A program made the translations under genes and the position numbers. Positions 3,235 to 53,382 of a stretch of 64,000 nucleotides of DNA are shown here, piece after piece (within the stretch, counting starts at the first letter, position 1; each line of letters begins with the position of its first letter). Source of the stretch: Yersinia alsatica. GTDB lineage: Bacteria > Pseudomonadota > Gammaproteobacteria > Enterobacterales > Enterobacteriaceae. The notes beneath the pieces were generated by a model that saw nothing but the letters and a program-made list of their open reading frames with translations, was not told the origin of the DNA and did not search any database. The stretch lies in contig NZ_CABHWW010000011.1 of assembly GCF_902170305.1 (NCBI RefSeq), positions 124,001 through 188,000 on the forward strand, given 5' to 3'.

Positions 3235-3257
3235 AATAACTCCTTAATAATATTATA

Positions 3258-4822: not shown

Positions 4823-4829
4823 AAATAAC

Positions 4830-34578: not shown

Positions 34579-35856
34579 ATGCGGAAAGCAGGCGATATCG
34601 ACAGAGTTATGTCGGCCAGACAACTTCCCAATAAAGCTGTAGCCCTGATCCTTGCCGGGGGCCGCGGCTCACGCCTTAAAGACCTTACGTCTGTCCGGGC
34701 AAAACCGGCAGTTCACTTCGGTGGAAAATACCGCATTATCGACTTCGCACTATCTAATTGCCTTAATTCAGGAATTCGTCGTATCGGGGTGATAACGCAG
34801 TATCAGTCCCATACCTTGGTACAACATATCCAGCATGGTTGGTCATTTCTCAGTGAAGAGATGAATGAGTTTGTTGATTTATTACCGGCGCAACAACGTC
34901 AAGGCCGAGAGCATTGGTACACCGGTACTGCTGATGCGGTGTTCCAGAATCTGGATATCATCCGCCGCTATCGCGCTGAATACGTAGTGATTTTGGCGGG
35001 GGACCATATTTATAAAATGGATTACTCACGCATGCTGTTGGACCACGTAGAGAGTGGCGCAGCCTGCACCGTAGCTTGCATTGAAGTGCCAAAGGAAGAA
35101 GCAACTGCCTTCGGCGTAATGGAAGTATCCGAAGATCTGCAAGTGAAAATGTTCTGGGAGAAACCTGAAGACCCGCCGACACTGCCCGGTAAGCCAGACC
35201 GTAGTCTAGCCAGTATGGGGATTTATGTGTTTAACGCCGAGTTCCTGTTTGGCCTGCTTGAGAGCGATCATGCGGACGAAAGCAGTAGCCATGATTTTGG
35301 TAAAGATATTCTGCCAAAAATCACTGAACAGGGCCATGTTTGGGCACATCCGTTCTCTCTGTCTTGTGTTTCCACATCGCCTGATGCCCCTGATTATTGG
35401 CGGGATGTCGGAACACTGGATGCCTATTGGCAAGCTAACCTCGATCAGGCCGCCATCACACCTGAGCTCGATATGTATGACCCTAATTGGCCAATACGTA
35501 CCTATGCCGAGCCACTACCACCCGCAAAATTTGTTCAGGACCGCTCTGGCAGCCATGGCATGACCATGAATACGTTGGTTTCCGGCGGCTGCTTTATCTC
35601 CGGATCCGTGGTGGTTAACTCCGTGTTGTTCTCCCGTGTTCGCGTCAATTCATTCTGTAATATTGATTCTTGCGTATTGCTACCCGACGTCAATGTTGGC
35701 CGCTCTTGTCGCTTGAAGCGCTGCGTAATTGATCGTGCCAGTACCATTCCTGAGGGGATGATCATTGGTGAAAATGCCGATGAAGATGCCCGTCGTTTCT
35801 ATCGTTCAGACAACGGCATTGTCCTTGTCACCCGAGAAATGCTGGCAAAGCTATAA
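34579..35856 (+). CDS. glgC: Glucose-1-phosphate adenylyltransferase
   Basis: GlgC makes ADP-glucose from ATP and glucose-1-phosphate, the committed step of bacterial glycogen synthesis. The 425-residue protein has the nucleotidyltransferase motif [15 protein letters not shown] with [11 protein letters not shown], the catalytic segment [23 protein letters not shown], and a C-terminal left-handed beta helix (about 300-425). In most enterobacteria glgC is inside glgBXCAP. Here it stands alone, between phytase and a small membrane-peptide gene, so it is either a relocated sole copy or a second paralogue. Confidence 0.94.
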
Positions 35857-35931: not shown

Positions 35932-36024
35932 ATGTCATTTACTGAATGGGTTATTCTGGGTGTCGTTATTGGTTGTGCCGTCGGTGCCTTGCTGAAGATT
36001 TTTGGTAAGAAAAAAGACAGCTAG
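35932..36024 (+). CDS. 30-residue single-helix membrane peptide
   Basis: A short ORF encodes MSFTEWVILG, then a hydrophobic glycine-rich helix (VVIGCAVGALLKIF) and the basic end GKKKDS. AAAGGG lies 8 bases before the ATG and a strong terminator follows 29 bases after the stop. The sequence therefore has start signal, membrane segment, positive-inside tail and terminator, as small membrane proteins of enterobacteria do. Function is unknown. It may be co-transcribed with glgC, 75 bases upstream. Confidence 0.6.
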   Translation: MSFTEWVILGVVIGCAVGALLKIFGKKKDS

Positions 36025-36052
36025 CCTTTTCAGTTCTCTGAATCAGTAACCT

Positions 36053-36083
36053 AAGACGGCACTTAGCGGTGCCGTCTTTTTTT
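36053..36083 (+). terminator. Intrinsic terminator
   Basis: AAGACGGCAC (36053-36062) pairs with GTGCCGTCTT (36069-36078), followed by T residues. It separates the glgC unit from the convergent porin gene. Confidence 0.88.
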
Positions 36084-36105
36084 GTGATGGTAATAGCATT
36101 AATTA

Positions 36106-36801
36106 TCAGAATGTATAGCGTAACCCTAGACGAAAGCGGTACTGCTCACGGTTATATTCATTCCAACGGTCCAGCCATTGCAACTCAAAATAAGGCATCC
36201 AGTGAGTATCGATTTTATAGCTGAATTTATTGGTGATTTCCCAATGAGAGCTTTTACCATTTTTGCCGTGGAAATCATTGACCCGGACAAAATAGTGAGG
36301 CTCAAGAGTATATGACAGGGCATCTGTCAGTTTGAAATTCCAATAGGTCGCAAATTCATGAGTATCATTATGAGCATAATCACCATTAAGATCTTTTGAC
36401 TCATAATTATTATGATTATAGCGATAGCGTGCAGTTAAATTAAAAACGGGTAAAAATTTATAATTAAAATCTATATACCCAGAACCCCCCGATCCCGCGC
36501 TGTTAGAATTAATAAGTCCGCCAGGGGAAATAGTAAACTTATCGGTAGGTTTAAAGAGTGGATACCAACCCTCCAGCTCATTATAACTGTGTTTTAACTG
36601 ATCCAGCCTTCCCGCATTATAAGCATTTGTTAACATTAATCCGGAACCATTATCGAAGTTATACCCACCGCGTAGAATGACTTCATGCTGCTCAGATGCC
36701 GTATTGTATGCTTCCCGGGTTTCAAGATAGGCTCTACCGGCAAATGTGCTGGCAGAGCTTATTAATGAGGCAATCAAGACAATTGAGTTATATTTATTCA
36801 T
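36106..36801 (-). CDS. ompL: OmpL/KdgM-family outer-membrane porin
   Basis: This 231-residue protein has a signal peptide (cleavage after STFA, residue about 21) and then a 12-stranded barrel of the KdgM type, ending in the YTF sorting signal. E. coli OmpL heads the sulfoquinovose cluster (ompL-yihOPQRST...) and has about the same length, so the position next to the SQ transporters supports this assignment. It probably lets sulfoquinovose or its glycosides cross the outer membrane. A hairpin at 36888-36911 separates it from the transporters, so it may be expressed as its own unit. Confidence 0.82.
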   Translation of the reverse strand: MNKYNSIVLIASLISSASTFAGRAYLETREAYNTASEQHEVILRGGYNFDNGSGLMLTNAYNAGRLDQLKHSYNELEGWYPLFKPTDKFTISPGGLINSNSAGSGGSGYIDFNYKFLPVFNLTARYRYNHNNYESKDLNGDYAHNDTHEFATYWNFKLTDALSYTLEPHYFVRVNDFHGKNGKSSHWEITNKFSYKIDTHWMPYFELQWLDRWNEYNREQYRFRLGLRYTF

Positions 36802-36887
36802 GACAAATCCCTATTGAGAACAATAAATGAAGGTTTTTTTATTTTTCTTACATCATGAAAATTGACAAATAATTATCATGGCTACGC

Positions 36888-36911
36888 CTCTGCCATAAAT
36901 ATATGGCAGAG
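36888..36911 (-). terminator. Hairpin between the transporter and porin genes
   Basis: CTCTGCCAT (36888-36896) pairs with ATGGCAGAG (36903-36911), with a 6-base loop. No clear T-tract follows, so partial termination or mRNA processing is possible. Confidence 0.5.
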
Positions 36912-36962
36912 AAATAACACAATCGAAATAACAGCATGTCAGTCTTTAATGGAGAAACAGTG

Positions 36963-38348
36963 TCACTCTGCTGTGACCATTTTACGCAAATTCAAGTCAG
37001 CAATAATTTTAACGAAGCGCTGCTCATTAAGTTTATAAAACAGCCCCATGGTAATGGCGGCAATTAATGCCAAAGTGCAAGGGTAGATAAAAATCAGTTG
37101 GCGTAACCCCTCCAGTACTGACGCAGATTGTGCCACGTTCGGAATATACCCAATCTGAGTCAGCATAATACCGGGTAGAAATCCGGCCAAAGCGGCTGAA
37201 ATTTTACGAGAGAACGTATATCCGGTATATACCGACCCCTCTGCACGAATACCGGTTTTCCATTCGCCGTAATCTACGGTGTCGGAGACTAATGCCCAAT
37301 TCAGGCTATTCACAAAGGCGGTGCCAAAGAAAGCCATACAGGAGAAAGCCACGAAGGTTACTGAGCTGGTGCCCCAGACGTAATTCAACACATCCCCCAA
37401 AACCCATAACATTAAGCCACCGAGATAGACCGTTTTCTTACCAAAATGCTTTACTACAGTCGGGACCAGCAGCACGCCAATCAAAATGCAGCCCATACTG
37501 AAGAAACCCATATAGGACAACAAATGGATATCCTGTAGTACGTATTGCGTGTAATAAACCTGAATAGCCAGTTTGATATTAAATGCCGCCAGCGTACACA
37601 GGTTAGCAATACAGAGTACCAGTAGCGGTGGATTTTTAAATATGGCGCAGAATGATTTAAAAATACCGGGCTTATGGTGCACCGACACCGGTTCCACATA
37701 ACGTTCTTTGACGCCGGAATAGCACCACCACATACAAACTAAACCGAAAGTGACGAATATTATCGCTGCAACCAAATAGCCGATTTCAGGTGAGGAAGTA
37801 AAAAGCAGCTGGATCGGCATAAAAGCAACAGTACACAATAATAACCCGACTGTTGCTCCGCCTTGACGCCAAGCTGCCAGATGGGCGCGCTCATTCGGGT
37901 TTTTCGTCATGGCCGGAACCATCGCCCCGTAAGAGCAATTCATCAAGCTGTAGAATAAGCCGAATAGCATAAACAATATTGTCGCCAGTACAGTTTTGAT
38001 ATTCAGACTAAAACCGGTATTGAGAAAGTTTGCCACTGCCAGCAATGCTACCGGCAGCGAAGCATATAAAATAAACGGCCGAAATTTGCCTTTGGCACCA
38101 ATATGACGGCGAGAATCTAACAGCACGCCGGTAAACATATCGGTAAAGGCGGTAAAGAACTTCGCGATCAAGAAGATGACGCCACCATAAATAGCCGGAA
38201 GCCCCAGAATATCAGTATAGAATTTCAGTAAATACAGAGTCCCAATGCACAACATCAGGTTAGAGCCAAAATCCCCCATTCCGTAAGCTATTTTCTCCCG
38301 TAACGGCAATCTGAGTGTCACGGAGTCCTGGTAAGTTGAATTCGACAT
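36963..38348 (-). CDS. GPH-family transporter, YihO/YihP-like (copy 1)
   Basis: A 461-residue, 12-helix glycoside-pentoside-hexuronide:cation symporter with the family motif around KFFTAFTDMFTGVLLDSRRH near residue 65. It is clearly paralogous to the next gene (long identical stretches such as WWCYSGVKERYVE and MGCILIGVLLVPTVVK), so the pair arose by duplication. E. coli also has two such genes, yihO and yihP, beside yihQ. One is thought to import sulfoquinovose, the other possibly its glycoside or export of the C3 sulfonate. I cannot say which is which. Confidence 0.85.
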   Translation of the reverse strand: MSNSTYQDSVTLRLPLREKIAYGMGDFGSNLMLCIGTLYLLKFYTDILGLPAIYGGVIFLIAKFFTAFTDMFTGVLLDSRRHIGAKGKFRPFILYASLPVALLAVANFLNTGFSLNIKTVLATILFMLFGLFYSLMNCSYGAMVPAMTKNPNERAHLAAWRQGGATVGLLLCTVAFMPIQLLFTSSPEIGYLVAAIIFVTFGLVCMWWCYSGVKERYVEPVSVHHKPGIFKSFCAIFKNPPLLVLCIANLCTLAAFNIKLAIQVYYTQYVLQDIHLLSYMGFFSMGCILIGVLLVPTVVKHFGKKTVYLGGLMLWVLGDVLNYVWGTSSVTFVAFSCMAFFGTAFVNSLNWALVSDTVDYGEWKTGIRAEGSVYTGYTFSRKISAALAGFLPGIMLTQIGYIPNVAQSASVLEGLRQLIFIYPCTLALIAAITMGLFYKLNEQRFVKIIADLNLRKMVTAE

Positions 38349-38372
38349 CTGACAGGTCCTTATTATTTTTTT

Positions 38373-38428
38373 AACCCGCTTACCTCCGGTGAAATATCAC
38401 TCGCACCGGAGCCTGCCATAAGCGGGTT
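38373..38428. repeat. Nested palindrome between the two transporter genes
   Basis: Outer arms AACCCGCTTA (38373-38382) and TAAGCGGGTT (38419-38428) enclose CTCCGGTG (38384-38391) and CACCGGAG (38404-38411), all perfect. It is 56 bases and has no T-tract on the coding strand. It looks like an intercistronic mRNA-stabilising or REP-like stem. Confidence 0.6.
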
Positions 38429-38473
38429 GTAGGGTTTGGGCAGTGTTAATCCATCTGATTAATATCGGCAACA

Positions 38474-39865
38474 CTAAACTGCTGGGCTGACATCGCGTTT
38501 GCGCGCCTCCAGCTCGGTGACAATTTTGATGTAGTTCTTTTCGGTCAGATGGTAGAACAGTCCCATGGTTAGTGCGGTCAAAATCGCCAGCGCGCAAGGG
38601 TATAGGAAGATAAGCTGAGTTAAGCCCTCCAGCGTCCTTTCTCCTTGTGCCACGTTAGGCACATAGCCGATATAAGCCAACATGACGCCGGGGAAGAAGC
38701 CAGCCAGCCCTTGGGAAATCTTGCGAAAGAAAGTAAAGCCGGTATAAACCGTCCCTTCAGAGCGCACGCCTGTTTTCCACTCACCGTACTCCACGGTGTC
38801 AGAAACCAAAGCCCAGTTCAGACTGTTAACAAATGCTGTACCAAAGAATGCCAGACAAGAGAACAAGACAAACAGCGTCGAGGTATTGCCCCAGATGTAG
38901 TTCATGGCATCGCCCAGAATCCACAGACTCAAGCCCCCCAAATAGACGTTTTTCTTACCAAAGCGCTTCACGACTGTAGGCACCAGCAGTACCCCCAGCA
39001 AAATGCAGCCCATGCTGAAGAACCCCATGTAGGACAGCAACGTCACATCGTTAAGCACGTATTGGGTGTAATAAATCTGGATCGCCAGTTTGATATTAAA
39101 ACCTGCTAAAGTGCACAGATTGGCAATACAGAGAACAAACAAGGGTTTATTTCCGGTAATCGCTTTGAAAGATTGCAATAACCCCGGCTTGGCAGCTCCT
39201 GGCTTGGGTAACTCAACATAACGCTCTTTCACACCGGAGTAGCACCACCACATACATAGCATGCCAACGAAGGCGAAGATGGCCGCAGCCACCAGGTAGC
39301 CCGTTTGCGCCCGTCCCTCAAAGAGCGACAAAATCGGCACAAACCCCACAGTACACAGCAATAGCCCCACCGTAGCCCCACCTTGACGCCAGGCGGCAAG
39401 CTGAGCACGCTCTTGCGGGTTTTTGGTCATCGCTGGCACCATTGCACCGTAAGAACAGTTCATCATGCTGAAAAACAAGCCAAAACTCATAAAAATTAAT
39501 GTGGCGGTAATCGTCTTGCCCGTAATACTAAATGGTGTGCCTATAAAGTTAGCCACCACCAGCAGGGCCACCGGCATAGAGGCATACAGAATAAATGGAC
39601 GAAACTTACCTTTTGGCCCGATATTACGGCGATTATCGAGCATCACGCCGGTTCCAATATCAGTAAATGCCGTGAAGAAGCGGGAAATAAGGAAAATTAG
39701 CCCCCCCCAAGCGGCAGGGATTTCCAAGACATCGGTATAAAATTTCAGTAAATATAACGTACCCACGCACAACAACAGATTTGACCCTACATCACCAATT
39801 CCGTAGGAGAATTTCTCGCGTAGCGGAAGTATCAGTTTGACCGGGTCTTGATGTATTTCACTCAT
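38474..39865 (-). CDS. GPH-family transporter, YihO/YihP-like (copy 2)
   Basis: A 463-residue 12-helix symporter of the GPH family, paralogue of copy 1. The N terminus LPLREKFSYGIGDVGSNLLLCVG and the segment RFFTAFTDIGTGVMLDNRRN are typical. The gene lies 45 bases downstream of the sulfoquinovosidase gene and is likely translated from the same transcript. Probable substrate is sulfoquinovose or sulfoquinovosyl glycerol, moved with a cation across the inner membrane. Confidence 0.85.
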   Translation of the reverse strand: MSEIHQDPVKLILPLREKFSYGIGDVGSNLLLCVGTLYLLKFYTDVLEIPAAWGGLIFLISRFFTAFTDIGTGVMLDNRRNIGPKGKFRPFILYASMPVALLVVANFIGTPFSITGKTITATLIFMSFGLFFSMMNCSYGAMVPAMTKNPQERAQLAAWRQGGATVGLLLCTVGFVPILSLFEGRAQTGYLVAAAIFAFVGMLCMWWCYSGVKERYVELPKPGAAKPGLLQSFKAITGNKPLFVLCIANLCTLAGFNIKLAIQIYYTQYVLNDVTLLSYMGFFSMGCILLGVLLVPTVVKRFGKKNVYLGGLSLWILGDAMNYIWGNTSTLFVLFSCLAFFGTAFVNSLNWALVSDTVEYGEWKTGVRSEGTVYTGFTFFRKISQGLAGFFPGVMLAYIGYVPNVAQGERTLEGLTQLIFLYPCALAILTALTMGLFYHLTEKNYIKIVTELEARKRDVSPAV

Positions 39866-39910
39866 GGTGACTCTCCTGAAAGGCCCGCTTCTGGCAGGCC
39901 TCTACCTGTG

Positions 39911-41950
39911 TTATAACACCCGTAATGATGCAAATAATTCGGCCCATTCACTGCTCGCACGATAAAACACCGGCGGCTGCCCCATAGGTGCGGCGACAGT
40001 CACTTCTGCCCCACCGCAATGTGGCTCACCCGTCCACAAGTTGACCCAACTGTCTTGTGGTAGATACAACGTCCAGTCACTGCGGCCTTCCTCATAGACC
40101 GGTGCTACCAGCAGATCACGACCAAATAGATACTGATATTTCAGGTTATAGGTATGCGCATCATCTTCGTAATGCAGGAATAGAGGGCGCATCACAGGTA
40201 GGCCTGATTGTGAATTCAGTGCCACCGCTTGTTTGATATAGGGTTTCAATGCAGCAAAAATGTGGGTCATGCGCGCAAACTGGCGGATGGTTTCAACATC
40301 GTGATCAAACTGCCAATTATCATCCGGCCGATTACCTTCGTGAGTACGCATTAGTGGAGTAAAGGCGCAGAATTCACACCAGCGCATCAGCAACTCTTTA
40401 CTGCGCTTCATATCAAACAATGTGGTGTAGCCGCCAATATCACTGTGATGCAGGCCATGCCCAGTCATTGCCAAAGATAAGGCCGCAGGGATAACCGATG
40501 CCAGACCATCATCCAGACTCCAGTCAACGTTCTGATCACCCGCCCACATCATGACTGAGTATTTCTGGCTGCCGGTGTAGCCTGCGCGCATAAAGAACAG
40601 AATTTCACCTAACTTGCCAGTGTCAACCAGCGCATCGTAGTTGCACTTAGCCCACAGGGCTGGCCAAGCGTTATGCATAATTTCGGCATCGACACCATTA
40701 TCCAGCAGAGTATCGGTCGGCAGGTATTCACCAAAGTCTGCCATCCAGCCATCAAGACCAAATTCAATCAGGTTCTTTTTAATGACCTCCTTGTACCAGT
40801 CGTAGGCGGCAGGTTTAGTTAGATCAACCACCCCAGCATAGAATTCGCCAAATTCCACCTGATAGTCATTGCCGCTGTAATCTTTGGTGAGATAGCCTTT
40901 TTCGGCGGCTTCGGCATAGAGCTCTTTTTCAATTGCCACATAGGGGTTGATATAGCCGAGGAAGCGTACCCCCTCTTTTTTCCATTGTGGAATCCGGGTA
41001 TCCAGTTCCGGGTACAGTTCGCTGTCCCAGCGCCAGTTCCACATCAGGCGCTTACCGAATGAGGTAATGCGGCGGCCTTCCCAGTCTTGCGCCCAAATAC
41101 CACTGACCTTCACGCCATGTTCGCGCATCACATCCAGTTTTTGTTGGCACACGTCAGTGCCGCCCTGAATGCCCAGAATCACCCCGTCATAAACCCAGTC
41201 TGGCAACTCTGGCTGACGCCCCAGCAGCGCGGTCAGTTTTTCTAACAGGCCGATATAGCTGTCGGCGCATTCAAAACGCAGCACTGCACTATCTTGCCAA
41301 ATCGCCAGTTCGTGGTAATCCGAAGCCGAGAAATCGAAATTCATGTAGCAGCTGTTGTCGATGTGGCAATAATATTTTTGGCTGCTGACAAAGGTAGGTT
41401 GCGGGAAGAATGTCCAATAATAGTCGCCACCGGCATTTTCTTTGCAGTCCGCCTGCCAGGTAACATAGCTTTGTTTATTACGCCCCACGCCTTGTTCACT
41501 GGTCCATAGCGGGAATGGCTTGCCGCGCAAATCGAAATAAGAAAACTGCTCGCCACAGCCGTAAATATGGTCTTCTTCCTGTGCGGCTAGTCGCAGCCAC
41601 ATGCGGTTATTGTCTTTATCTCCATTGCTCAGTGTCATCTCCAACCGTCCGGCGGCATCAAGCGTAATATGCAACTGGGCTTCGGCCACCTCCCCGCGGC
41701 TGAAATGAATATCCCACCCCTTCCCCTTGGCGGTAATAACCGCATCGGTCAGAGCCAGCTTTTCACTTAAGCAATCTTTGATACTGAAATTGCCGCGGAA
41801 CATGTCGATATCGGCTTTACCGCGGCCAATCCATAAGCAAGGTACCTGCTGGCTGTGTTTAAGCAGCAGTCGCTGTTGGAATAAGAGAGTAAAACCGTCA
41901 CTCTGTTCGATTAATTCCAGACCCGGCTGACCGCCTGATTGATAAGTCAT
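39911..41950 (-). CDS. yihQ: Sulfoquinovosidase (GH31)
   Basis: YihQ releases sulfoquinovose from sulfoquinovosyl glycerol and other SQ glycosides. From the ATG at 41950 (GGGGA upstream) the product has 679 residues, about the E. coli length. The catalytic nucleophile Asp405 (WMADFGEYLP) and acid/base Asp472 (WAGDQNVDW) fall at the same residue numbers as in E. coli YihQ. So do the sulfonate-binding Arg301 and Trp304 (GKRLMWNW) and Tyr508. This is strong evidence for SQ specificity and against a plain alpha-glucosidase. A longer in-frame start 18 codons upstream is rejected. It is first in line after the isomerase gene. Confidence 0.94.
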   Translation of the reverse strand: MTYQSGGQPGLELIEQSDGFTLLFQQRLLLKHSQQVPCLWIGRGKADIDMFRGNFSIKDCLSEKLALTDAVITAKGKGWDIHFSRGEVAEAQLHITLDAAGRLEMTLSNGDKDNNRMWLRLAAQEEDHIYGCGEQFSYFDLRGKPFPLWTSEQGVGRNKQSYVTWQADCKENAGGDYYWTFFPQPTFVSSQKYYCHIDNSCYMNFDFSASDYHELAIWQDSAVLRFECADSYIGLLEKLTALLGRQPELPDWVYDGVILGIQGGTDVCQQKLDVMREHGVKVSGIWAQDWEGRRITSFGKRLMWNWRWDSELYPELDTRIPQWKKEGVRFLGYINPYVAIEKELYAEAAEKGYLTKDYSGNDYQVEFGEFYAGVVDLTKPAAYDWYKEVIKKNLIEFGLDGWMADFGEYLPTDTLLDNGVDAEIMHNAWPALWAKCNYDALVDTGKLGEILFFMRAGYTGSQKYSVMMWAGDQNVDWSLDDGLASVIPAALSLAMTGHGLHHSDIGGYTTLFDMKRSKELLMRWCEFCAFTPLMRTHEGNRPDDNWQFDHDVETIRQFARMTHIFAALKPYIKQAVALNSQSGLPVMRPLFLHYEDDAHTYNLKYQYLFGRDLLVAPVYEEGRSDWTLYLPQDSWVNLWTGEPHCGGAEVTVAAPMGQPPVFYRASSEWAELFASLRVL

Positions 41951-42052
41951 AATAAAATCCCCAAAAGATATAAATGCTGTTGATTTTGTTAGGGTATCCG
42001 GCACGGGCCAGATACCTTGTCATCCGAACGGTTGGCGATCAAAATCGCCCAA

Positions 42053-43399
42053 TTAAGTCAGTTCGATAACCTCAAGATTGAGTAACTGAGCCACCTTACG
42101 CAGTAGCGGACGATGCTCGCCGTACACCAGCGAGGTATGGTGCTCCATCCCCGCATCCAGCAGTCGTTGGCGGTAACTATCAGCATCGATATCCAGTCGG
42201 GCGGTTCCGGCAGTACCTGAGAAGGCCAATGGCGCTTTGATCATCTCGCCCCCGGCGAGCATTAGGCGCAACTTGCCCTCACCCTGGGTGATTCGACATA
42301 ACGTGATTCGGCCTGGTTTGAGGGCAAATTCGGACAGCAGAGGTAACTGGCGATTGGAATGGATGGTTGCCCGCACCGGCCCATCGTGGTCAGCCATTTC
42401 AATGGGAGCCTGACCGCAGTGCCAGAACACCACGCCATTGCTCTGTGGGTCGATATCCACTAGATCGGTATTGAACGCCGCATTACCAGAAGCCCATTGC
42501 GCCATTAATGAGGAGAGCACACCGAACATATCGGCCTCACAGCCGCAAGGCACTTTGTCTTCATTCATCAATGCCAACGCGCCACAAGCAGCACAACCAT
42601 AGTCGGTAAAAAAATCCGGCCAGCAGCGCACCGCAATACCGCAATAACCTTCCTGCTGGGCTTTCTCACGCAAGGCGGAATAAACCTTTAACGTTTTGCA
42701 GGTAGCGGTTTGATCCATCTCTGCCAGATTAGGGAAATCTTTAGCACGACGTTGATAAGGGGCGTCAGCCACACTGTCCGGTAACGCTTTCACTTCATCA
42801 ATAAATGCCAGTACCGGTTGGCGATCGACACTCACGCCAAAGTGTTGTGTCAGTTGTTGCTGGTTATAATTGCAGGCATCAAAGCCCAATGGATGCTCGC
42901 CAATGACCATCACTTTGGCGCGTTTAAAGCGGTTAACGATAGCGGCAGCTTGGGCTAATTGTTGCAGCTCCCCCACGACACGGGCATCGTTCGGCAGACC
43001 ATGCACCGTTTGCACTTTGATATTTTCCCGGCTCAGCGCATGGCAAGCCAAATTCACGCCACAAAAAGAGTTCAGCCGCAAGCGTCCCCCAGTACGAGCC
43101 TCCGGGAAAGACCACATCGCGGTGGGAACCGGAAAATCGCGCACCACTTCACAAGTCAGCGAAGCATCGGTAAATGTCACTTGCAAGATCAGCAACAGAT
43201 CAAGATTGGCCCGTTTCAGTGCTGGTAAGGCCTGTAGCGCAGACTCGGCATCAAACTGTAATTCCGCCTCGCCAATTAATTCGATATCCATCGTGGACAA
43301 AGTGCTCCACGCCAAAGCCAACATTTCTTGTGCGTAGGGCACATCGAAAGTACTGCGGCCTAAGGCCAACACGCCCACTTTTGCTTTTTTATTCATCAT
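42053..43399 (-). CDS. sqvD: Sulfoquinovose isomerase, SqvD-type (FucI/AraA-like fold)
   Basis: A 448-residue sugar isomerase of the L-fucose/L-arabinose isomerase group. The N-terminal part is Rossmann-like (VGVLALGRSTFDVP), with GGRLRLNSFCGVNL near residue 105 and a C-terminal FWHCGQAPIEMA segment typical of FucI-like proteins. It is not homologous to E. coli YihS, which has an AGE/(alpha/alpha)6 barrel. Its place in the cluster, where a YihS would be, and the described SqvD isomerases of sulfo-EMP2 and sulfo-TAL pathways make it the SQ to sulfofructose step. The metal ligands were not assigned. GGAAG lies 5 bases before the ATG. Confidence 0.75.
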   Translation of the reverse strand: MMNKKAKVGVLALGRSTFDVPYAQEMLALAWSTLSTMDIELIGEAELQFDAESALQALPALKRANLDLLLILQVTFTDASLTCEVVRDFPVPTAMWSFPEARTGGRLRLNSFCGVNLACHALSRENIKVQTVHGLPNDARVVGELQQLAQAAAIVNRFKRAKVMVIGEHPLGFDACNYNQQQLTQHFGVSVDRQPVLAFIDEVKALPDSVADAPYQRRAKDFPNLAEMDQTATCKTLKVYSALREKAQQEGYCGIAVRCWPDFFTDYGCAACGALALMNEDKVPCGCEADMFGVLSSLMAQWASGNAAFNTDLVDIDPQSNGVVFWHCGQAPIEMADHDGPVRATIHSNRQLPLLSEFALKPGRITLCRITQGEGKLRLMLAGGEMIKAPLAFSGTAGTARLDIDADSYRQRLLDAGMEHHTSLVYGEHRPLLRKVAQLLNLEVIELT

Positions 43400-43440
43400 A
43401 TTGCTTCCAGTGAATTTAATAACTTATGGGTTGGCGCTGC

Positions 43441-44538
43441 TCAGGCGACAACACTAAAACGGTGTTCGGTACAGCTGTAATATTGTTGCCCTGGACGTAG
43501 AACAACATCAGGGAAATGCTCATGGTGGATGCTGTCGGGGAAGGCTTGCGTCTCCAGACATATTCCTGAAAATGCTTGATAACGATGCCCCGACTTACCA
43601 TTCCATATCTTGTTGGAAAGCTTAAAAGCGTTGTAAAACTGGATACCCGGCAATGTGGTATGGACCTCCATTACCCGACCAGAATTCGGACAAATCATTA
43701 ATGCCGCCGGTTGTAAGCTGGCGCATTCTTTCATCGGTAAATTGTCTTTGGGCTGGGAATAGTTTGTTTTCAGGGCATGGTTTTTTTTCAGAACATAGTT
43801 AACATCGAAATCTTGTGCTGGCCGCGCCAGCATGGCATCTCCCAAACGGCGAGCATGGCGAAAATCGAATGCCGTGCCAGCGACCCGCACTATCTCTCCG
43901 GTCGGCAACATGCTGGCTTCATCCACCGGTGTCATAAAGTCAGCTTCAATTTTCAACTGTTGGTCATGAATCAGATGGGTATGACCACGCAAATTGTAGT
44001 GGCTATGGTTGACCAAATTGACCACCGTCGGTTTATCGGTCTGAGCCTCAAAACTGAAGGTCATCACGTTATCTTCCGTCAGACCGATACGATGGCGTAC
44101 CTGCAAATTCCCCGGATATCCCTCTTCACCATCAACTGAAGTGCGACTAAAAATAATGCCGTCACCATCCTCCTGCGCCTGCCAGACATACTTATCAAAC
44201 CCACGAATGCCGCCGTGTAAATGCTGTCCGGTGGTCAATTCATTAGTGGCGAGCAGAAACTCCTGCCCATCAATATTGAAGCGCCCACCGGCAATGCGAT
44301 TGGCACAACGACCGGCAATGGCACCAAAGAATGGATGACCAGCCTGATAGGATTTCAAATCATCAAACCCCATTACCACGTCTTCCAACTGCCCCTGTCG
44401 ATCTGGCACCCAAAGCTGAGTGATAATGCAGCCATAGTCGGTGACGCAGAGCTTCATCCCGCTGCGGTTCGTCAGTGTAAACAGCGAAACGTCCTGCCCC
44501 TGATGCTCGCCAAATGACTGGCGTTGAATTGTTGTCAT
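43441..44538 (-). CDS. Aldose 1-epimerase, GalM-like (probable SQ mutarotase)
   Basis: A 365-residue mutarotase of the GalM type. It has LHGGIRGFDKYVW, NLVNHSHYNLRGH with the catalytic histidine, and the catalytic glutamate in CLETQAFPDSIHH. Start 44538 is preferred because ATGAGGTTGAGGTT precedes the ATG; the longer frame would overlap the aldolase gene. In the E. coli cluster the mutarotase is YihR (about 300 residues); this one is nearer GalM in length and motifs. It probably speeds alpha/beta interconversion of sulfoquinovose for the isomerase. Confidence 0.8.
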   Translation of the reverse strand: MTTIQRQSFGEHQGQDVSLFTLTNRSGMKLCVTDYGCIITQLWVPDRQGQLEDVVMGFDDLKSYQAGHPFFGAIAGRCANRIAGGRFNIDGQEFLLATNELTTGQHLHGGIRGFDKYVWQAQEDGDGIIFSRTSVDGEEGYPGNLQVRHRIGLTEDNVMTFSFEAQTDKPTVVNLVNHSHYNLRGHTHLIHDQQLKIEADFMTPVDEASMLPTGEIVRVAGTAFDFRHARRLGDAMLARPAQDFDVNYVLKKNHALKTNYSQPKDNLPMKECASLQPAALMICPNSGRVMEVHTTLPGIQFYNAFKLSNKIWNGKSGHRYQAFSGICLETQAFPDSIHHEHFPDVVLRPGQQYYSCTEHRFSVVA

Positions 44539-44566
44539 AACCTCAACCTCATATTTCGTGTCGCTG

Positions 44567-45436
44567 TTAGCTGGCGAATGCGCTGGCTTTGCCTTGGCTG
44601 CCAAATAGACGGATTTTTTCAATCACTTTCTGCTGCATAACATCTCGCCCGTGGCCCAAAGAAACAGCTAAAACATACTCGTCAGGAGATTGACTCAGTA
44701 CCTCGATGACCCCTTGGGTAAAGGCCTGGCGCAATTCGGTATCGACATTCACTTTGGCGACACCCAAGGTAATCGCACGGCGAATTTGCTCATCTGGCAC
44801 ACCAGAGCCCCCGTGCAGCACGATAGGTTTTTTAACGATTTCGCGGATTTCCTGTAAGCGTTCAAATGCCAGTTTCGGCTCTTGCTTGTAGATTCCGTGT
44901 GCAGTGCCAATCGACACCGCCAGATAATCGACCGTGGTTAGTTCGGCAAACTTCAGTGCTTCATCACAGCTGGTAATTAATGCGTCTTTTTCATCAACTG
45001 AGATGTCGTCTTCAGTACCACCAATCTTGCCGATCTCACCTTCAGAACCGATATTCAATACACGGGCAACATCAGCAACAGCGCGGGTAATTCGCACATT
45101 TTCATCAAATGAAAGATGGGAGCCGTCAAACATTACCGATTGGAAACCAGCCTGAACCGCCGCCATGGTCTGTTCAAAGCTGCGGCTGTGATCGAGATGG
45201 ATACAGACCGGCACCGTGATGTCATGCATAAAAGCATCGACCATCTCTTTCATCGGTTTTAGCCCCATGACGCTTATCACTTTTTGCCCGATTTGCAGCA
45301 TGATGGGGGCTTGCTCTTCTTGCGCTGCCAACAAAATGGCGCGGATGGTTTCAGCATTGTGGGCGCTAAAAGCACCGATGGCATAGCCATGCTGCCAAGC
45401 ATGTTGAATTAAGGTATTACCGGATACATAAGGCAT
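44567..45436 (-). CDS. sqiA: Class II sulfofructose-1-phosphate aldolase, SqiA-type
   Basis: A 289-residue class II, metal-dependent aldolase of the FBA/tagatose-bisphosphate aldolase family. It would split 6-deoxy-6-sulfofructose-1-phosphate into DHAP and sulfolactaldehyde. The catalytic Asp82 lies in HLDHS. Metal-binding histidines are His83, His180 (GTAHGIYK) and His208 (LHGGSG). GSEGEIG near residue 130 carries the loop glutamates. E. coli YihT, a class I Schiff-base aldolase, is absent. Class II SqiA enzymes have been described, including from Yersinia aldovae. The 68-base gap before it and its place between reductase and mutarotase support the role. Confidence 0.85.
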   Translation of the reverse strand: MPYVSGNTLIQHAWQHGYAIGAFSAHNAETIRAILLAAQEEQAPIMLQIGQKVISVMGLKPMKEMVDAFMHDITVPVCIHLDHSRSFEQTMAAVQAGFQSVMFDGSHLSFDENVRITRAVADVARVLNIGSEGEIGKIGGTEDDISVDEKDALITSCDEALKFAELTTVDYLAVSIGTAHGIYKQEPKLAFERLQEIREIVKKPIVLHGGSGVPDEQIRRAITLGVAKVNVDTELRQAFTQGVIEVLSQSPDEYVLAVSLGHGRDVMQQKVIEKIRLFGSQGKASAFAS

Positions 45437-45505
45437 TTTCTTTCCCTCTACGCGCTGCTTTCAGCCGCTTTTCAATAATAAATAAATTAAAAATCATTTA
45501 GTTAA

Positions 45506-46384
45506 CTACAAGCCAGACTGACTGCGAACTTGTTGTAAAATCGCACTCCAATCCTGCCGTCCACGCCCATTGGCTCGCGCCTGGCTGTATACTTCGCGCG
45601 ATGCTGCCCCCATTGGCATCGTGACGTGTAGCTGGTTTGCAACATCCAGAGCGATACCTAAGTCTTTGTGTGCCAAATCAATCATGAATGCCGGCGTTAA
45701 ATCGCCTTTGAGTACTTTATTGGGCCAAGTTGTGGTGAAGTGCCCTTTACCCGCGGGTGTACCACTCATGACTTGCAGTGCGACATCGAAAGACAGCCCC
45801 AGCGCTTCACACAGCACTGCGGCCTCAGCCGACAGTGCATTGAGTGCAATACTCATGTAGTTGTTGATCAACTTGACACGGATCCCCATGCCCGGCCCTC
45901 CCGCATTGACTAACTCAGACCCCATCGCCATCAACAGTGGGGTGGCCCGCTCAACCTGTAGCAGCGTTCCCCCCGCCAGTATTAATAAAGTCCCCGCCTG
46001 TGCATGGTCGGAAGTGCGTCCTACCGGGGCATCCATAAAACTGAACCCTTTGGCCTGCATCTCTTGTGCCAAACGGTCAGTCTGCAATGGGTGGATGGTC
46101 GACATGTCAATCACCAGTGCGCCTGGCGATAAACGGCTGCATACCCCATCCGTACCGAACAGCACCTCACGCACCAGATCACCATTAGGCAGCATTGTGA
46201 TAACGAACTCCGCGCCTTCAGCCGCCTCCCCGGCATGGCGGCACCCTGTCGCCCCCAAAGCGACTAATTCCGCGACGGCTGCGGGGCTAATATCGAAAAC
46301 ATGCAACTGATGTCCCTGTTTAATCAGGTTGCGCGCCATGGGAGTTCCCATTTGCCCTAACCCAATGAATGCTACCTGTGCCAT
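45506..46384 (-). CDS. yihU: Sulfolactaldehyde reductase YihU
   Basis: YihU reduces sulfolactaldehyde to 2,3-dihydroxypropane-1-sulfonate with NADH, the last step of fermentative SQ use. The 292-residue protein is a beta-hydroxyacid dehydrogenase with the nucleotide motif [15 protein letters not shown], the substrate-binding [14 protein letters not shown] with Arg123, and the catalytic Lys171 in [10 protein letters not shown]. The [14 protein letters not shown] segment is that of E. coli YihU as I recall it. It is the first gene of the minus-strand operon, divergent from the kinase gene. Confidence 0.9.
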
Positions 46385-46466
46385 TATTTCCTCCTGTCAC
46401 TCAATGTCATTTTTCACTACTTAATTGGAATGTTTTGTCTGTTTTTGATCGTATTTGTAATTTATA

Positions 46467-46480
46467 GTCAAAAAATTGAC
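46467..46480. promoter_or_regulatory. Inverted repeat in the divergent SQ promoter
   Basis: GTCAA-AAAA-TTGAC is a perfect 5-bp inverted repeat. Its right arm is part of TTGACA, a possible -35 for the kinase gene. It could be an operator or promoter element. Confidence 0.4.
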
Positions 46481-46515
46481 ATTCGTCACTCTTTTAACAT
46501 TTGAACGAATTAAAA

Positions 46516-46532
46516 TGGTCACATCGTGATCA
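46516..46532. promoter_or_regulatory. Candidate YihW operator
   Basis: TGGTCAC-ATC-GTGATCA is a palindrome with one mismatched pair, 37 bases upstream of the kinase start and in the divergent promoter between yihU and yihV. It is the best candidate for the DeoR-type regulator encoded two genes away. Confidence 0.45.
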
Positions 46533-46568
46533 ACAGCCCTTTTTTGGCTAAATAAGGAACTCAGAACC

Positions 46569-47465
46569 ATGACCCGGATTGCATGTGTAGGAATTACGGT
46601 GCAGGACCGCCTCTATTACTTGGCAGAGCTGCCTGATGGTGGTGGGAAATATATCGCCCATGACTATCGTGAAATTGGCGGTGGGCCAGCAGCAACAGCA
46701 GCGGTGGCCGCTGCCAGATTGGGTGCACAGGTCGATTTTATTGGCCGGGTTGGTGATGATGCCACCGGCAATGCTCTACTGGCAGAGCTAGAAAGTTATG
46801 GGGTGAACACCGCGTTGAGTCGCCGTTACGCCAATGCCCGCTCATCGCAATCAGCCATATTGGTCGATAACTATGGCGAGCGAATTATCATCAACCACCC
46901 CAGCCCCGATTTACCGGACGATGCCCAATGGTTAACGAAGATAGACTTCAGTCACTATGATGTGGTGCTCGCGGATGTCCGCTGGCATCAGGGAGTATTG
47001 ACAGCATTTACCTTGGCGCGTCAGGCTGGCGTAACAACCTTGCTTGATGCCGATGTTACGCCACAAGATATCCGCCCATTGGTGGCTCTGGCCGATCACG
47101 CCGCCTTCTCCGAACCCGGGCTACTGCGGATGACAGGAGAAAATGACACTGATATGGCACTGCTACTCGCCGCAAATGACACAAACGGACATGTCTATGT
47201 CACCCGAGGTCAAAAAGGCTGTTATTGGTTAGAAGGCGGGCAGCAGCAACATCAGCCTGGCTTTGAGGTGGATGTGGTCGATACCACCGGTGCGGGGGAT
47301 GTTTTTCATGGTGCTCTTGCAGTTGCTCTGGGGCAAAAAAGTACCATTGCGCTGGCAGTGCGTTATGCTAATGCCGTCGCGGCTTTGAAGTGTACCCGCC
47401 CAGGCGGGCGCGCCGGTATACCTGATTGTGATCAAACTGACTCTTTCCTGACGCATTTTGTATAA
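46569..47465 (+). CDS. yihV: Sulfofructose kinase YihV
   Basis: YihV phosphorylates 6-deoxy-6-sulfofructose with ATP at carbon 1. The 298-residue PfkB-family kinase has the N-terminal GGGPAATAAVAAARLGA, GRVGDDATGNALLAELE, and the C-terminal DTTGAGDVFHGALAVAL with the catalytic aspartate. The end GRAGIPDCDQT matches E. coli YihV, and the length equals it. So this step keeps the E. coli type enzyme, whereas isomerase and aldolase do not. It is divergent from yihU and 37 bases before yihW. Confidence 0.92.
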   Translation: MTRIACVGITVQDRLYYLAELPDGGGKYIAHDYREIGGGPAATAAVAAARLGAQVDFIGRVGDDATGNALLAELESYGVNTALSRRYANARSSQSAILVDNYGERIIINHPSPDLPDDAQWLTKIDFSHYDVVLADVRWHQGVLTAFTLARQAGVTTLLDADVTPQDIRPLVALADHAAFSEPGLLRMTGENDTDMALLLAANDTNGHVYVTRGQKGCYWLEGGQQQHQPGFEVDVVDTTGAGDVFHGALAVALGQKSTIALAVRYANAVAALKCTRPGGRAGIPDCDQTDSFLTHFV

Positions 47466-47502
47466 AATAAACAATAGTATGATGAATGAGAGAGAGCTAA
47501 GC

Positions 47503-48303
47503 ATGAGTCTGACCGAACTGACCGGGAACCCACGTCACGATCAACTGATTCAGCTGATCGCCAATCGGGGTTATATGAACATTGATGAATTGGCGCAATT
47601 GCTGGATGTTTCGACTCAGACTGTGCGTCGAGATATCCGCAAGCTTAGCGAACAAGGGCTAATTACCCGCCATCACGGTGGTGCCGGGCGTGCTTCTAGT
47701 GTCGTGAATACCGCTTTTGAGCAACGCGAGCTTTCATATACCGCAGAGAAGATGGCGATTGCTGAGGCGATTGCTGATTATATTCCCGACCGTTCCACCG
47801 TGTTTATCACCATTGGTACCACCGTTGAACATATTGCCCGTGCATTGATGAATCATAGCCATTTGCGTATTATCACCAACAGTCTGCGGGTGGCGCATAT
47901 TTTGTATAAAAATACTGACTTTGAAGTAATGGTGCCGGGAGGAACATTACGGCCTAATAATGGCGGCATTATTGGCCCCAGCGCGGTTTCTTTTGTTGAG
48001 GGATTTCGTGCTGACTATCTGATTACCAGCATGGGGGCCATTGATACTGATGGCAGTCTACTCGAATTTGATGTCAATGAGGCCACGGTGGTGAAAGCGA
48101 TGATGGCGCATTCCCGCCATATATTACTGGCCGCTGACCATACCAAATTCCATGCTTCTGCCGCAGTTGAAATTGGCAATGTCGCCAAAGCCACCGCGCT
48201 GTTCACTGATGTGCCGCCCCCTTCTCATATGGTGACACTCTTGCAGCAACAACAGGTGGAGTTGGTCGTCACACAGCTAGGTAATCAAGAACCCACGATC
48301 TGA
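47503..48303 (+). CDS. yihW: DeoR-family regulator YihW (CsqR)
   Basis: YihW represses the SQ genes and is released by an SQ pathway sugar or phosphate. The 266-residue protein has a DeoR helix-turn-helix (NIDELAQLLDVSTQTVRRDI near residue 25) and a C-terminal ligand domain with ITIGTTVEH and the phosphosugar loop. The start MSLTELTGNPRHDQL matches E. coli YihW, so the ATG at 47503 with GAGAGAG upstream is chosen. Its likely operators are in the yihU-yihV gap. Confidence 0.92.
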   Translation: MSLTELTGNPRHDQLIQLIANRGYMNIDELAQLLDVSTQTVRRDIRKLSEQGLITRHHGGAGRASSVVNTAFEQRELSYTAEKMAIAEAIADYIPDRSTVFITIGTTVEHIARALMNHSHLRIITNSLRVAHILYKNTDFEVMVPGGTLRPNNGGIIGPSAVSFVEGFRADYLITSMGAIDTDGSLLEFDVNEATVVKAMMAHSRHILLAADHTKFHASAAVEIGNVAKATALFTDVPPPSHMVTLLQQQQVELVVTQLGNQEPTI

Positions 48304-48316
48304 ATTTACATCGCCG

Positions 48317-48334
48317 GCAGGCTGCAAAGCCTGC
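48317..48334. terminator. Bidirectional terminator-like hairpin
   Basis: GCAGGCT (48317-48323) and AGCCTGC (48328-48334) form a perfect 7-bp stem with a 4-base loop between convergent yihW and the ynb operon. TAGATTTTG follows on the plus strand. Confidence 0.6.
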
Positions 48335-48747
48335 TAGATTTTGCCTATGCCAGTCCAAAACAAGTCAATCAACGGCGCACTGACCATCACCAGCCACAAT
48401 AATAAAGTGCTAAACATAGCGCGATGCAATAGCTTAGTTGCCCCGCGCCAGCGCGAGTCGAGAGAGCGCCCATTCACTGGCTTTCTGCCCCATAATTGCT
48501 GTAACGCCATATCAAAATCCGCTGTTTGCGGCTCACTGGTATACAGCAAAGCAAAAAGTCGCTCATCAAGCCATAAACGCCAGCAGTAATAATGGGTAAC
48601 ACCGGCAAGCAGTAATAATAGTGCGGCAATCATGCTATCGGCGCCCCATAGGGCAAAGATGATAGGTGGCAGCGTTAAGGCAGCCAGATAACGCCAACTG
48701 GCAAGATGAATGGTCAACACCTGCCCGGCGACGGGGTGATTTAGCAT
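48334..48747 (-). CDS. Small inner-membrane protein at the end of the ynb operon
   Basis: A 137-residue protein with about four hydrophobic segments (near 20-40, 40-60, 105-130). The start MLNHPVAGQVLTIH at 48747 has AGAGGAAAAC upstream and overlaps the ynbD stop as ATGCTAA, so it is translationally coupled. A longer start seven codons earlier is possible. I do not recognise a family. Position suggests a membrane partner of the lipid enzymes encoded upstream. Confidence 0.7.
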   Translation of the reverse strand: MLNHPVAGQVLTIHLASWRYLAALTLPPIIFALWGADSMIAALLLLLAGVTHYYCWRLWLDERLFALLYTSEPQTADFDMALQQLWGRKPVNGRSLDSRWRGATKLLHRAMFSTLLLWLVMVSAPLIDLFWTGIGKI

Positions 48748-50060
48748 GCTGTTTTCCTCTTTTGCCATAGCGCGAGTGCGTGTAAATGCTGCGGCTGCAA
48801 CACCACTTGTGGGCGAGCTTGCTGCAATAGCTCAGCCGCCGCTTGCACAGTCGCGACTCGTTGCGTATCTAACAACCATGCCGCAATCACCAATGCACTG
48901 CGCGACATACCGAGCGCACAATGAACCAACACCGTCCCCTGTTGCTGCTGGAGTTGGTCAAGGCTCGCAACTGCCTGGGCCAATTGCTTCTGCGTCGGCA
49001 CCACTAAATCCATCAATGGGCAGCATATATAGGCTTTATGGTGGCTGTTATGGCTGCGGCTAAATTCTGCGGTGACATCCAATACACTGGCCTGCGCTAA
49101 CGGTACTCGCGGGTAACTGCCAATAAATACGCCGTCCGCAACTTCTACCGCTTGGGGCAATCGGCGGGTAAAGCCATACATCGAGAGCCACGCCCCCAGC
49201 CGGTAAGGCCATAATAGCAAGCGGGCTGAAGATGAAATCTGGCCATCTTGCTGCTTTTGGAACACACCCACGCCCCAACCGCTATAGCCAGCAGCCACCG
49301 CAAGCAGAGCCAGTGCTAACCATCCCAGTATAGACCAGCCACCGCCCAGCCACAGACCCAAACTGCCCACCAGTATCGCTGCACCACCATACCAGAGCAC
49401 CAGCTTCAGAGCCGGACGACGCGGTCGCTGCCAACACCAACCGCTATTTATCGGGATCAAATAGCTGACAACAACACCCGCCGCCAATCCAGTGACAATA
49501 TCAATCACATGATGCTGCCAAGTGGTCAGCACTGATATTGCAATCAATGCAAACCAGCCACTCATTAACCAACGCAATGTCCCTTGGCAGTGTGGCCAGA
49601 AGCGCAACCATAACAACCAGGCCAGCATGATGTGCAATGAAGGTGCTTGGTTGTAAGGTAAGTCAAACATTTCCAACTGTTGGAATAACCACCCAAATGG
49701 CCCGTCAGTCACTGGACGAACAAAACTGAACTTGAGTGGGAATAATAGGAAGCCTAGACAGGCCACCAGCGAGGCCATCACCAAGCGCCATGCATGTCGA
49801 GTTTGCTCTCGTAGCGAAGTGCAGATAAAGAGTGACAATCCATAGAGCAGGTCAATGCTCCAATAGGGCACAATCGTCCAAGGCAAAAAAGGAATATGGT
49901 GCTCCCAGCCATATACCACACTGCCCACGCCAACACGGCTGGCGGTGAAATGGTTGGTCTGACCATAGCTGATAAAAAATAGCGGGGCCAGCAACAATAG
50001 CCACAGCACAGCTCGTCGCCAGAGCTGCCTGCGGCTTACCAGACTATCAACCTCAGTCAT
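48741..50060 (-). CDS. ynbD: YnbD: PAP2-type phosphatase fused to dual-specificity phosphatase
   Basis: The product (439 residues from 50060) has an N-terminal membrane PAP2-like phosphatase domain with APSLHIMLAWL near residue 140 (PSLH form of the PSGH motif) and TTWQHHVIDIVTG near 185, then more helices, and a C-terminal dual-specificity/tyrosine phosphatase domain whose signature HCALGMSR fits HCx5R (about residue 390). It would dephosphorylate a lipid phosphate on the membrane and something else in the cytoplasm. The ATG at 50060 overlaps the ynbC stop by 8 bases (ATGACTGA). E. coli YnbD has the same architecture. Confidence 0.85.
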   Translation of the reverse strand: MTEVDSLVSRRQLWRRAVLWLLLLAPLFFISYGQTNHFTASRVGVGSVVYGWEHHIPFLPWTIVPYWSIDLLYGLSLFICTSLREQTRHAWRLVMASLVACLGFLLFPLKFSFVRPVTDGPFGWLFQQLEMFDLPYNQAPSLHIMLAWLLWLRFWPHCQGTLRWLMSGWFALIAISVLTTWQHHVIDIVTGLAAGVVVSYLIPINSGWCWQRPRRPALKLVLWYGGAAILVGSLGLWLGGGWSILGWLALALLAVAAGYSGWGVGVFQKQQDGQISSSARLLLWPYRLGAWLSMYGFTRRLPQAVEVADGVFIGSYPRVPLAQASVLDVTAEFSRSHNSHHKAYICCPLMDLVVPTQKQLAQAVASLDQLQQQQGTVLVHCALGMSRSALVIAAWLLDTQRVATVQAAAELLQQARPQVVLQPQHLHALALWQKRKTAC

Positions 50061-51816: not shown

Positions 51817-52451
51817 GGCATTTTCCTTGTTGCGAGCTGTTGCAGGGCGATAAAGCGTTGCTGTAATTCAGTTCGGAATATCTGTTTGTCATCATGAAAA
51901 TAGAAAGGTTTATCAACATAGATATCAATAAAGAATGGCACTGGGATGCGCTGTCCTTTTCCCATGGCCCGCCCTAGTCCATGCATATACACCGGAGTGA
52001 TGGGTACGCTGGGAAATTGGCGGCTCAAATACCACAGACCAGATTTAAATTCGGAGAACTTTTCCGGTTCGCCACGGGTTCCTTCAGGAAACAGAATCAC
52101 AATTTTGTTATTGGAGAGCGCTTCAATGCAGCCCGCCAAAGGGTCACTGCCCTTAGCTGCACCACCACGGGTTACCGGAATAATGCCAATCACTTTAATG
52201 GCGAACCAGGCAATGGCGCGGTTACGTAGAAAGTAATCCGCTGCCGCGACCGGATGAACTTGTGACAACGTCGATAAGGGGAATAAGGTAAACAGCGTCA
52301 ATATATCTAAGTGGCTATTATGGTTTGCCACCACAATTGCCGGCCCTTTGAGGGGCAGTTGTTTTCGCTGCCAGACAGAAACCCCCAGCCATACCAGCAC
52401 TACCGGATACGCCACACACAGCGTAAAAATCCAGCGCAATAGTCGGTTCAC
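51813..52451 (-). CDS. Lysophospholipid/glycerol-phosphate acyltransferase (PlsC-like)
   Basis: The 212-residue membrane-bound acyltransferase has the HX4D catalytic motif in VANHNSHLDIL, the FPEGTRGEPEKFSEF substrate motif, and an N-terminal hydrophobic helix. It would move an acyl chain onto a lysophospholipid or glycerol-phosphate. It lies between ynbB and ynbC with 9-base and overlapping junctions. I do not recall it inside the E. coli ynbABCD operon, so here the operon seems to contain an extra acylation step. Confidence 0.85.
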   Translation of the reverse strand: MNRLLRWIFTLCVAYPVVLVWLGVSVWQRKQLPLKGPAIVVANHNSHLDILTLFTLFPLSTLSQVHPVAAADYFLRNRAIAWFAIKVIGIIPVTRGGAAKGSDPLAGCIEALSNNKIVILFPEGTRGEPEKFSEFKSGLWYLSRQFPSVPITPVYMHGLGRAMGKGQRIPVPFFIDIYVDKPFYFHDDKQIFRTELQQRFIALQQLATRKMP

Positions 52452-52460
52452 GGCTAGCCC

Positions 52461-53381: not shown

Positions 53382-53382
53382 A

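Follow-up and report, generated by a model that had tools for sequence, protein, structure and literature searches.

The window analysed here is a stretch of 64,000 nucleotides from the 5.0 Mb genome of Yersinia alsatica (contig NZ_CABHWW010000011.1, positions 124,001 to 188,000), and it carries at 36106–48303 a gene cluster for the predicted breakdown of sulfoquinovose (SQ). Seven genes form a frame of the E. coli type, and three genes of other families occupy its interior. All ten reading frames are open, and their family matches lie far beyond chance. The features are as follows, where GPH stands for glycoside-pentoside-hexuronide and DHPS for 2,3-dihydroxypropane-1-sulfonate.

36106–36801, minus strand: ompL, a porin of the KdgM family, retained frame gene (NF007434 362.6 bits, cut-off 288; 66% identical to E. 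coli OmpL)
36963–38348, minus strand: yihO-like GPH symporter, putative SQ import (74% identical to YihO, 69% to YihP; role taken from the E. coli annotation)
38474–39865, minus strand: yihP-like GPH symporter, putative DHPS export (73% identical to YihP, 66% to YihO; role taken from the E. coli annotation)
39911–41950, minus strand: yihQ, predicted sulfoquinovosidase of GH31 (NF007746 1148.5 bits, cut-off 553; 78% identical to E. coli YihQ)
42053–43399, minus strand: sqvD-like isomerase of the FucI family, in place of yihS (PF02952; NF048012 280 bits, cut-off 700)
43441–44538, minus strand: GalM-type aldose-1-epimerase, in place of yihR (PF01263 250.6 bits; NF008277; TIGR02636)
44567–45436, minus strand: sqiA, predicted class II sulfofructose-1-phosphate aldolase, in place of yihT (PF01116 321.6 bits)
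45506–46384, minus strand: yihU, predicted sulfolactaldehyde reductase (NF012005 541.9 bits, cut-off 348; 78% identical to YihU)
46385–46568, no strand: divergent yihU/yihV regulatory region (46441–46490 identical to E. coli at 47 of 50 bases)
46569–47465, plus strand: yihV, predicted sulfofructose kinase of the PfkB type, not SqiK (PF00294 197.9 bits; 72% identical to YihV)
47503–48303, plus strand: csqR (yihW), regulator of the DeoR family (80% identical to E. coli CsqR)
36086–48354, no strand: segment missing from the empty site in other Yersinia, approximate bounds (blastn against five Yersinia loci, L172–L176)

Compared with E. coli K-12 (L001), whose cluster reads ompL-yihOPQRSTUV-csqR, the seven frame genes are orthologues at 66–80% identity, and their order and strands are preserved, as are the regulator and the DNA between the divergent yihU and yihV. 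The difference lies in the three genes that separate yihQ from yihU: yihR-yihS-yihT in E. coli, sqvD-galM-sqiA in the window. A preliminary description, made from the letters of the window, had recognised the orthologous E. coli-type frame, a FucI-like isomerase instead of YihS and a class II aldolase instead of YihT, all of which agrees with the comparison and with the PF02952 and PF01116 matches. It had counted two replaced central steps; isomerase and aldolase are indeed non-homologous to their counterparts, but the replaced steps number three, since the mutarotase has also changed from YihR to a GalM type. A separate yihS/yihT pair elsewhere in the genome was considered and rejected, as the E. 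coli YihS and YihT queries gave no match in the genome, in a search run without a positive control; tblastn with the same queries recovers orthologues at other loci. The gaps from yihU to ompL measure 28 to 161 bases, which would allow a single transcript or a small number of them.

Within the frame, two starts lie inside longer open reading frames (ORFs). yihQ likely begins at the ATG at 41950 (longest ORF from a GTG at 42004) and csqR at the ATG at 47503 (longest ORF from a TTG at 47458), the latter because MSLTELTGNPRHDQ is common to the window and E. coli. All five positions checked in YihQ are kept (D405, D472, R301, W304 and Y508), which we take to be catalytic and sulfonate residues, as are all five checked in YihU and K27, N109, R138 and D244 of YihV, presumably catalytic or sulfonate sites likewise.

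The isomerase matches PF02952 at 39.8 bits against a gathering cut-off of 29.3. In a 13-row alignment its residues E288, D312 and H421 are invariant and align with E337, D361 and H528 of E. coli FucI, which we assume to be the metal ligands. The accessible part of PMC9594981 describes conserved manganese ligands in a model of SqvD from Bacillus urumqiensis, now Alkalicoccus urumqiensis, to which the window isomerase is ~30% identical over its length. Judged by such identities and by the family scores given below, the isomerase stands on a proteobacterial branch of its own, only distantly related to Firmicutes SqvD. No assay of a proteobacterial isomerase was found in the literature searched, a limited set in which the key 2023 paper was unreadable, so this absence is weak. 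The name SqvD is also given, in the accessible text of PMC11968277, to a DUF4867 protein of Bacillus megaterium, and thus seems to be used in print for two different proteins.

The epimerase likely begins at the ATG at 44538 (longest ORF from a TTG at 44622). It scores 249.8 on NF008277, over the cut-off of 240, and 262 on TIGR02636, under the cut-off of 397.65, and it is ~21% identical to E. coli YihR and 34% to E. coli GalM. On the YihR model PRK15172 it reaches 21.6 bits, below the cut-off of 251. These scores support the view that the gene between isomerase and aldolase encodes an aldose epimerase of a subfamily other than YihR. Homologues at 49–52% identity stand beside YihS and SqiA (L163, L165), beside YihS and YihT (L169), and beside SqiA and an isomerase in Pseudovibrio (L107). 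A housekeeping GalM was considered and rejected, as the contig carries a further homologue, 34% identical, at a different place. For the gene between sqiA and sqvD in Hafnia paralvei, published reports disagree: as PMC10991401 relates in the part available, Sharma et al. call it yihR, whereas PMC10991401 itself has it encode an aldolase, probably not YihR. The present typing supports a GalM-type aldose epimerase. No description of a mutarotase replaced by a GalM-type enzyme came up in the same limited literature, the key 2023 paper again being unreadable, which makes this a weak absence as well.

For the aldolase, the closest solved chains are 8q57 and 8q58, whose PDB molecule names are tagatose-1,6-bisphosphate and ketose-bisphosphate aldolase. 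Counted on the alignment, 8q57 is identical to the aldolase of Y. aldovae ATCC 35236 at 287 of 289 residues, and the window aldolase is 93% identical to that protein and 97% to the one of Y. frederiksenii ATCC 33641. We take the two chains to be the structures of SqiA published by Sharma et al. in 2023 (J Biol Chem 299:105338). The PF01116 match, combined with such closeness to an aldolase of known structure in this group, identifies the gene as a probable SqiA, an enzyme whose activity on sulfofructose-1-phosphate is attributed to Sharma et al. 2023 in the accessible part of PMC12890257.

On gene content, the cluster is a predicted hybrid of the sulfoglycolytic Embden–Meyerhof–Parnas (sulfo-EMP) pathway and its second form (sulfo-EMP2), and neither plain sulfo-EMP nor the published sulfo-EMP2 set. 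YihS and YihT, which characterise the sulfo-EMP pathway of E. coli, are both missing from the cluster. Sulfo-EMP2 is given in the accessible text of PMC9594981 as SqvD, SqiK and SqiA in Firmicutes, a definition of membership credited to Liu et al. The window resembles that system, as known from A. urumqiensis, in its FucI-like isomerase, its class II aldolase and the intermediates these would share. It differs in the kinase and the regulator: the Alkalicoccus reference locus (L147) has a kinase of the phosphofructokinase type (PF00365, as SqiK) with an adjoining GntR-type regulator gene, whereas the window has YihV, of PF00294, and CsqR, and its isomerase is, as noted, distant. The preliminary description had equated the layout with published sulfo-EMP2, and that assignment fails on the kinase. 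Hybrids of this kind, and their presence in this family, are already known. In the parts available, PMC9594981 describes a Yersiniaceae hybrid cluster with SqvD and SqiA, PMC10991401 names H. paralvei AVS0177 and Serratia fonticola DSM 4576, and PMC12890257 summarises hybrid combinations across Proteobacteria and Actinobacteria. The window shares with these Yersiniaceae and Hafniaceae hybrids SqvD for YihS, SqiA for YihT and a yih frame with CsqR, and with H. paralvei also a gene between sqiA and sqvD.

We hold with high confidence that the cluster encodes a complete hybrid sulfo-EMP/EMP2 pathway for SQ, formed by a swap of the contiguous yihR-yihS-yihT for sqvD-galM-sqiA. In the predicted route, SQ glycosides would enter through OmpL and YihO, and YihQ would set free alpha-SQ, whose anomers the GalM-type epimerase would interconvert. 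The FucI-like isomerase, probably manganese-dependent, would then turn SQ into sulfofructose, YihV would phosphorylate it at O1, and SqiA, a class II aldolase of the zinc type, would cleave sulfofructose-1-phosphate into dihydroxyacetone phosphate and sulfolactaldehyde. YihU would reduce the latter to DHPS for export by YihP, and CsqR would repress the genes until SQ is present. The swapped trio could be imagined to act on other sulfosugars, for example sulfofucose, instead of SQ or besides it, given the GalM-, FucI- and tagatose-aldolase-like family resemblances and the distance of the isomerase clade from characterised SqvD. We regard this as very improbable: the YihQ-type sulfoquinovosidase, YihV, YihU, CsqR and the yihU/yihV DNA are all kept at high identity, and a described sulfofucose pathway proceeds by oxidation, isomerase activity not having been detected in it according to the accessible portion of PMC12421959.

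The distribution of the two gene sets was followed in a family sample of 246 genomes, drawn from a larger group, of which 33 have YihQ over its cut-off. Twenty-eight of these loci carry YihS and YihT, five carry SqvD, GalM and SqiA, and none of the 33 is mixed; YihR accompanies 19 of the 28. In the genus Yersinia, YihQ passes its cut-off in four of 25 genomes, and all four loci (the window, L030, L091 and L092) have the swapped trio. At L092 the isomerase and three frame genes are in pieces; L092 and L100 (Y. aldovae ATCC 35236) match the isomerase, yihQ and both transporters each in two pieces, through either assembly error or decay. Outside the family, 11 places have YihQ over the cut-off. 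Two combine YihS, SqiA and GalM (L163, L165), one has YihS, YihT and GalM (L169), three have YihS and YihT (L096 with YihR, L168 and L170), and at five no partner was found (L097, L098, L164, L166 and L167, the last on a contig of 6.5 kb); L171 falls short of the YihQ cut-off and stands outside these counts. The hybrid loci L163 (473–10286) and L165 (8276–18756) bring together YihU, a GalM-type epimerase, YihS, SqiA and YihQ, and L163 also has genes for a tripartite ATP-independent periplasmic (TRAP) transporter.

A tree of the frame proteins YihQ, YihU, YihV and CsqR (42 rows) unites the nine block-bearing rows, from Yersinia, Serratia and Chimaeribacter, in a single clade (98/100) that falls within the YihS/YihT loci. 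Holding the 29 YihS/YihT rows of the same family together as one clade is rejected by the approximately unbiased (AU) test (p-AU 0.017), as is joining Leminorella to the block clade (p-AU 0.009); the constrained groups were chosen after a first tree of 48 rows had been seen. Frame trees cover only loci with YihU, YihV and CsqR, which leaves out L163, L165 and the Firmicutes loci. The 48-row tree omits L092, whose genes are fragmented, along with the duplicates L099, L100, L103, L105 and L106, and in it L108 was scored as SqiA only, its GalM and isomerase being in pieces. The 42-row tree further omits L096, L107 and L108 (long branches) and L081, L020 and L095 (near copies). A single block-bearing clade favours a single replacement, and one replacement of the contiguous block in the Yersinia/Serratia/Chimaeribacter lineage is the simplest account. 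The fuller proposal joins several parts: that yihR-yihS-yihT was swapped in place as a unit in the ancestor of these three genera, with flanks, regulator and operator intact, that the mutarotase is an unrecognised third swap, and that the proteobacterial isomerase branch evolved apart from Firmicutes SQ isomerases. For that whole we judge the balance to be even.

Several observations weigh against our reading of the cluster. On the equivalog model for the sulfoquinovose isomerase SftI/SqvD (NF048012), three Firmicutes SqvDs pass the cut-off of 700 with 702–822 bits, whereas the window isomerase reaches 280 and three other proteobacterial relatives 267–296. An hhalign comparison with E. coli FucI gave a probability of 3.5%, with a shallow five-row proteobacterial profile set against a single sequence. 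One checked YihV position differs, S25 of E. coli being G in the window. At nine of the 28 YihS/YihT loci no mutarotase turned up; the pathway may therefore manage without this step. The frame tree was rooted on three outgroup loci of other families under LG+G4 without a mixture model, and some of its deep branches are weak. Finally, there are the mixed sets of L163, L165 and L169, which belong to other families of the order; in the sequence retrieved for L163 and L165 part of the frame is missing, hence their place outside the tree. The mixed sets imply that gene-by-gene exchange is possible and that the slots can change separately.

These mixed sets also speak for a stepwise history, in which aldolase, mutarotase and isomerase were exchanged singly in a Yersiniaceae ancestor and the intermediates were lost or remain unsampled. 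A comparison with Firmicutes points the same way. The SqiA of the window is 58–70% identical to those of the Firmicutes loci among L109–L158 (leaving aside L154, from Chimaeribacter, and L157, a distant match), and at those loci the isomerase, where one was found, is only 28–32% identical. The SqiA scan covered 64 loci, and the distant matches L157 and L159–L162 (35–39% identical) fall outside the range. In quick gene trees, which gave long-branch warnings, a very long branch splits the isomerases. Arrival of the isomerase with SqiA from Firmicutes was therefore rejected on the very different identities and tree depths, and the pair did not come together from there. Leminorella grimontii, moreover, has SqiA without this isomerase. 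Set against a stepwise history are the absence of any mixed locus among the 33 of the family sample and the single clade of nine block-bearing rows, and we consider it less likely than not.

The replacement of the block as a unit would have left regulation in place. Among ungapped 50-base matches on the same strand, the window and E. coli clusters share two that rank best: the stretch 46441–46490, between yihU and yihV, and a second at 37561 within yihO. The yihU/yihV element recurs at the other aligned loci and is weaker in L089, L104 and L022. In E. coli, CsqR binds the yihU/yihV region and is released by SQ (PMC12608037, accessible part), and promoters have been mapped there (PMC5816610, accessible part). 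Taken with this binding, the conserved DNA suggests that the new enzymes probably answer to the old regulator, CsqR.

The genomic site bears on how the cluster came to lie in Yersinia. In five other Yersinia genomes (L172–L176) the site is empty, with the flanks 17 to 81 bases apart; blastn matches to the left flank stop at 36029–36085, and matches to the right flank start at 48355–48383. Seven other loci (L177–L183) match the left flank only, L177 being cut by a contig end. The left flank is a paralogue of glgC (34579–35856) beside a gene for a histidine-acid phosphatase, agp-like by inspection. The paralogue shares 77% identity with a further copy in this genome and has full-length copies at at least 94% identity in 15 of 25 Yersinia genomes, the window's included. 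Directly after it, at 35932–36024, lies an ORF for a membrane-like peptide of 30 residues (MSFTEWVILGVVIGCAVGALLKIFGKKKDS), and stretches resembling it were seen by eye in L172–L176.

The empty site, the presence of YihQ in just four of 25 Yersinia genomes, and a position beside the glgC paralogue rather than between yihN and yihX as in E. coli are what one would expect if the cluster, already hybrid, had entered Yersinia whole from another Yersiniaceae genus and stayed unaltered in this lineage. All four Yersinia loci lie next to the same glgC copy, however, which fits old inheritance with losses too, and the G+C content of the ten genes (39–55%, against 46.9% for the window) shows no strong outlier. 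We place this route a little short of even likelihood; it concerns the way into Yersinia and not the function of the cluster.

The novelty of the replaced block is modest: the cluster is ordinary as a type and moderately interesting as evolution. As an example of operon genes giving way to non-homologous ones it is clear-cut: enzymes described as metal-independent, YihS and YihT (PMC9594981, in the part available), appear to have been exchanged for metal-type enzymes, with regulator and divergent regulatory DNA kept in place. The known picture of interchangeable sulfo-EMP and sulfo-EMP2 enzymes is unchanged. What this analysis adds is the typing of the epimerase, the frame tree, the conservation of regulatory DNA, the empty site and the divergence of the isomerase, whose proteobacterial branch it marks out as worth an assay.

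Two related arrangements were found at other loci. In Leminorella grimontii (L104, 7146–15846), CsqR and YihV diverge from YihU and SqiA, beyond which lie a zinc alcohol dehydrogenase gene, a pair of genes that on inspection resemble transporters, and an aldose epimerase gene; neither isomerase type nor YihQ was found in the 20.9 kb locus. Speculatively, a pathway here might enter at sulfofructose through oxidation of a sulfosugar alcohol. Relatives of the window isomerase, 40–41% identical, occur in the same phylum at L198–L200, adjoining YihV-like kinases, and the two loci tested (L199, L200) have DeoC/LacD aldolases beside them. YihQ and YihU were not found within the stretches fetched at L198–L200, which possibly encode another EMP-like sugar pathway.

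Around the cluster, an operon resembling ynbABCD by inspection (48334–53982) abuts its right end, and the phosphatase-like gene of this operon is present in seven of 25 Yersinia genomes, the window's included. About 30 kb away, at 1479–5855, stand organosulfonate genes. Their products match the CuyA D-cysteate sulfo-lyase model NF052482 (562.6 bits, cut-off 450) and the CuyB cysteate racemase model NF052483 (264.7 bits, cut-off 190), and a taurine-like ATP-binding cassette transporter scores below the cut-offs of the taurine models. These genes probably serve cysteate breakdown.

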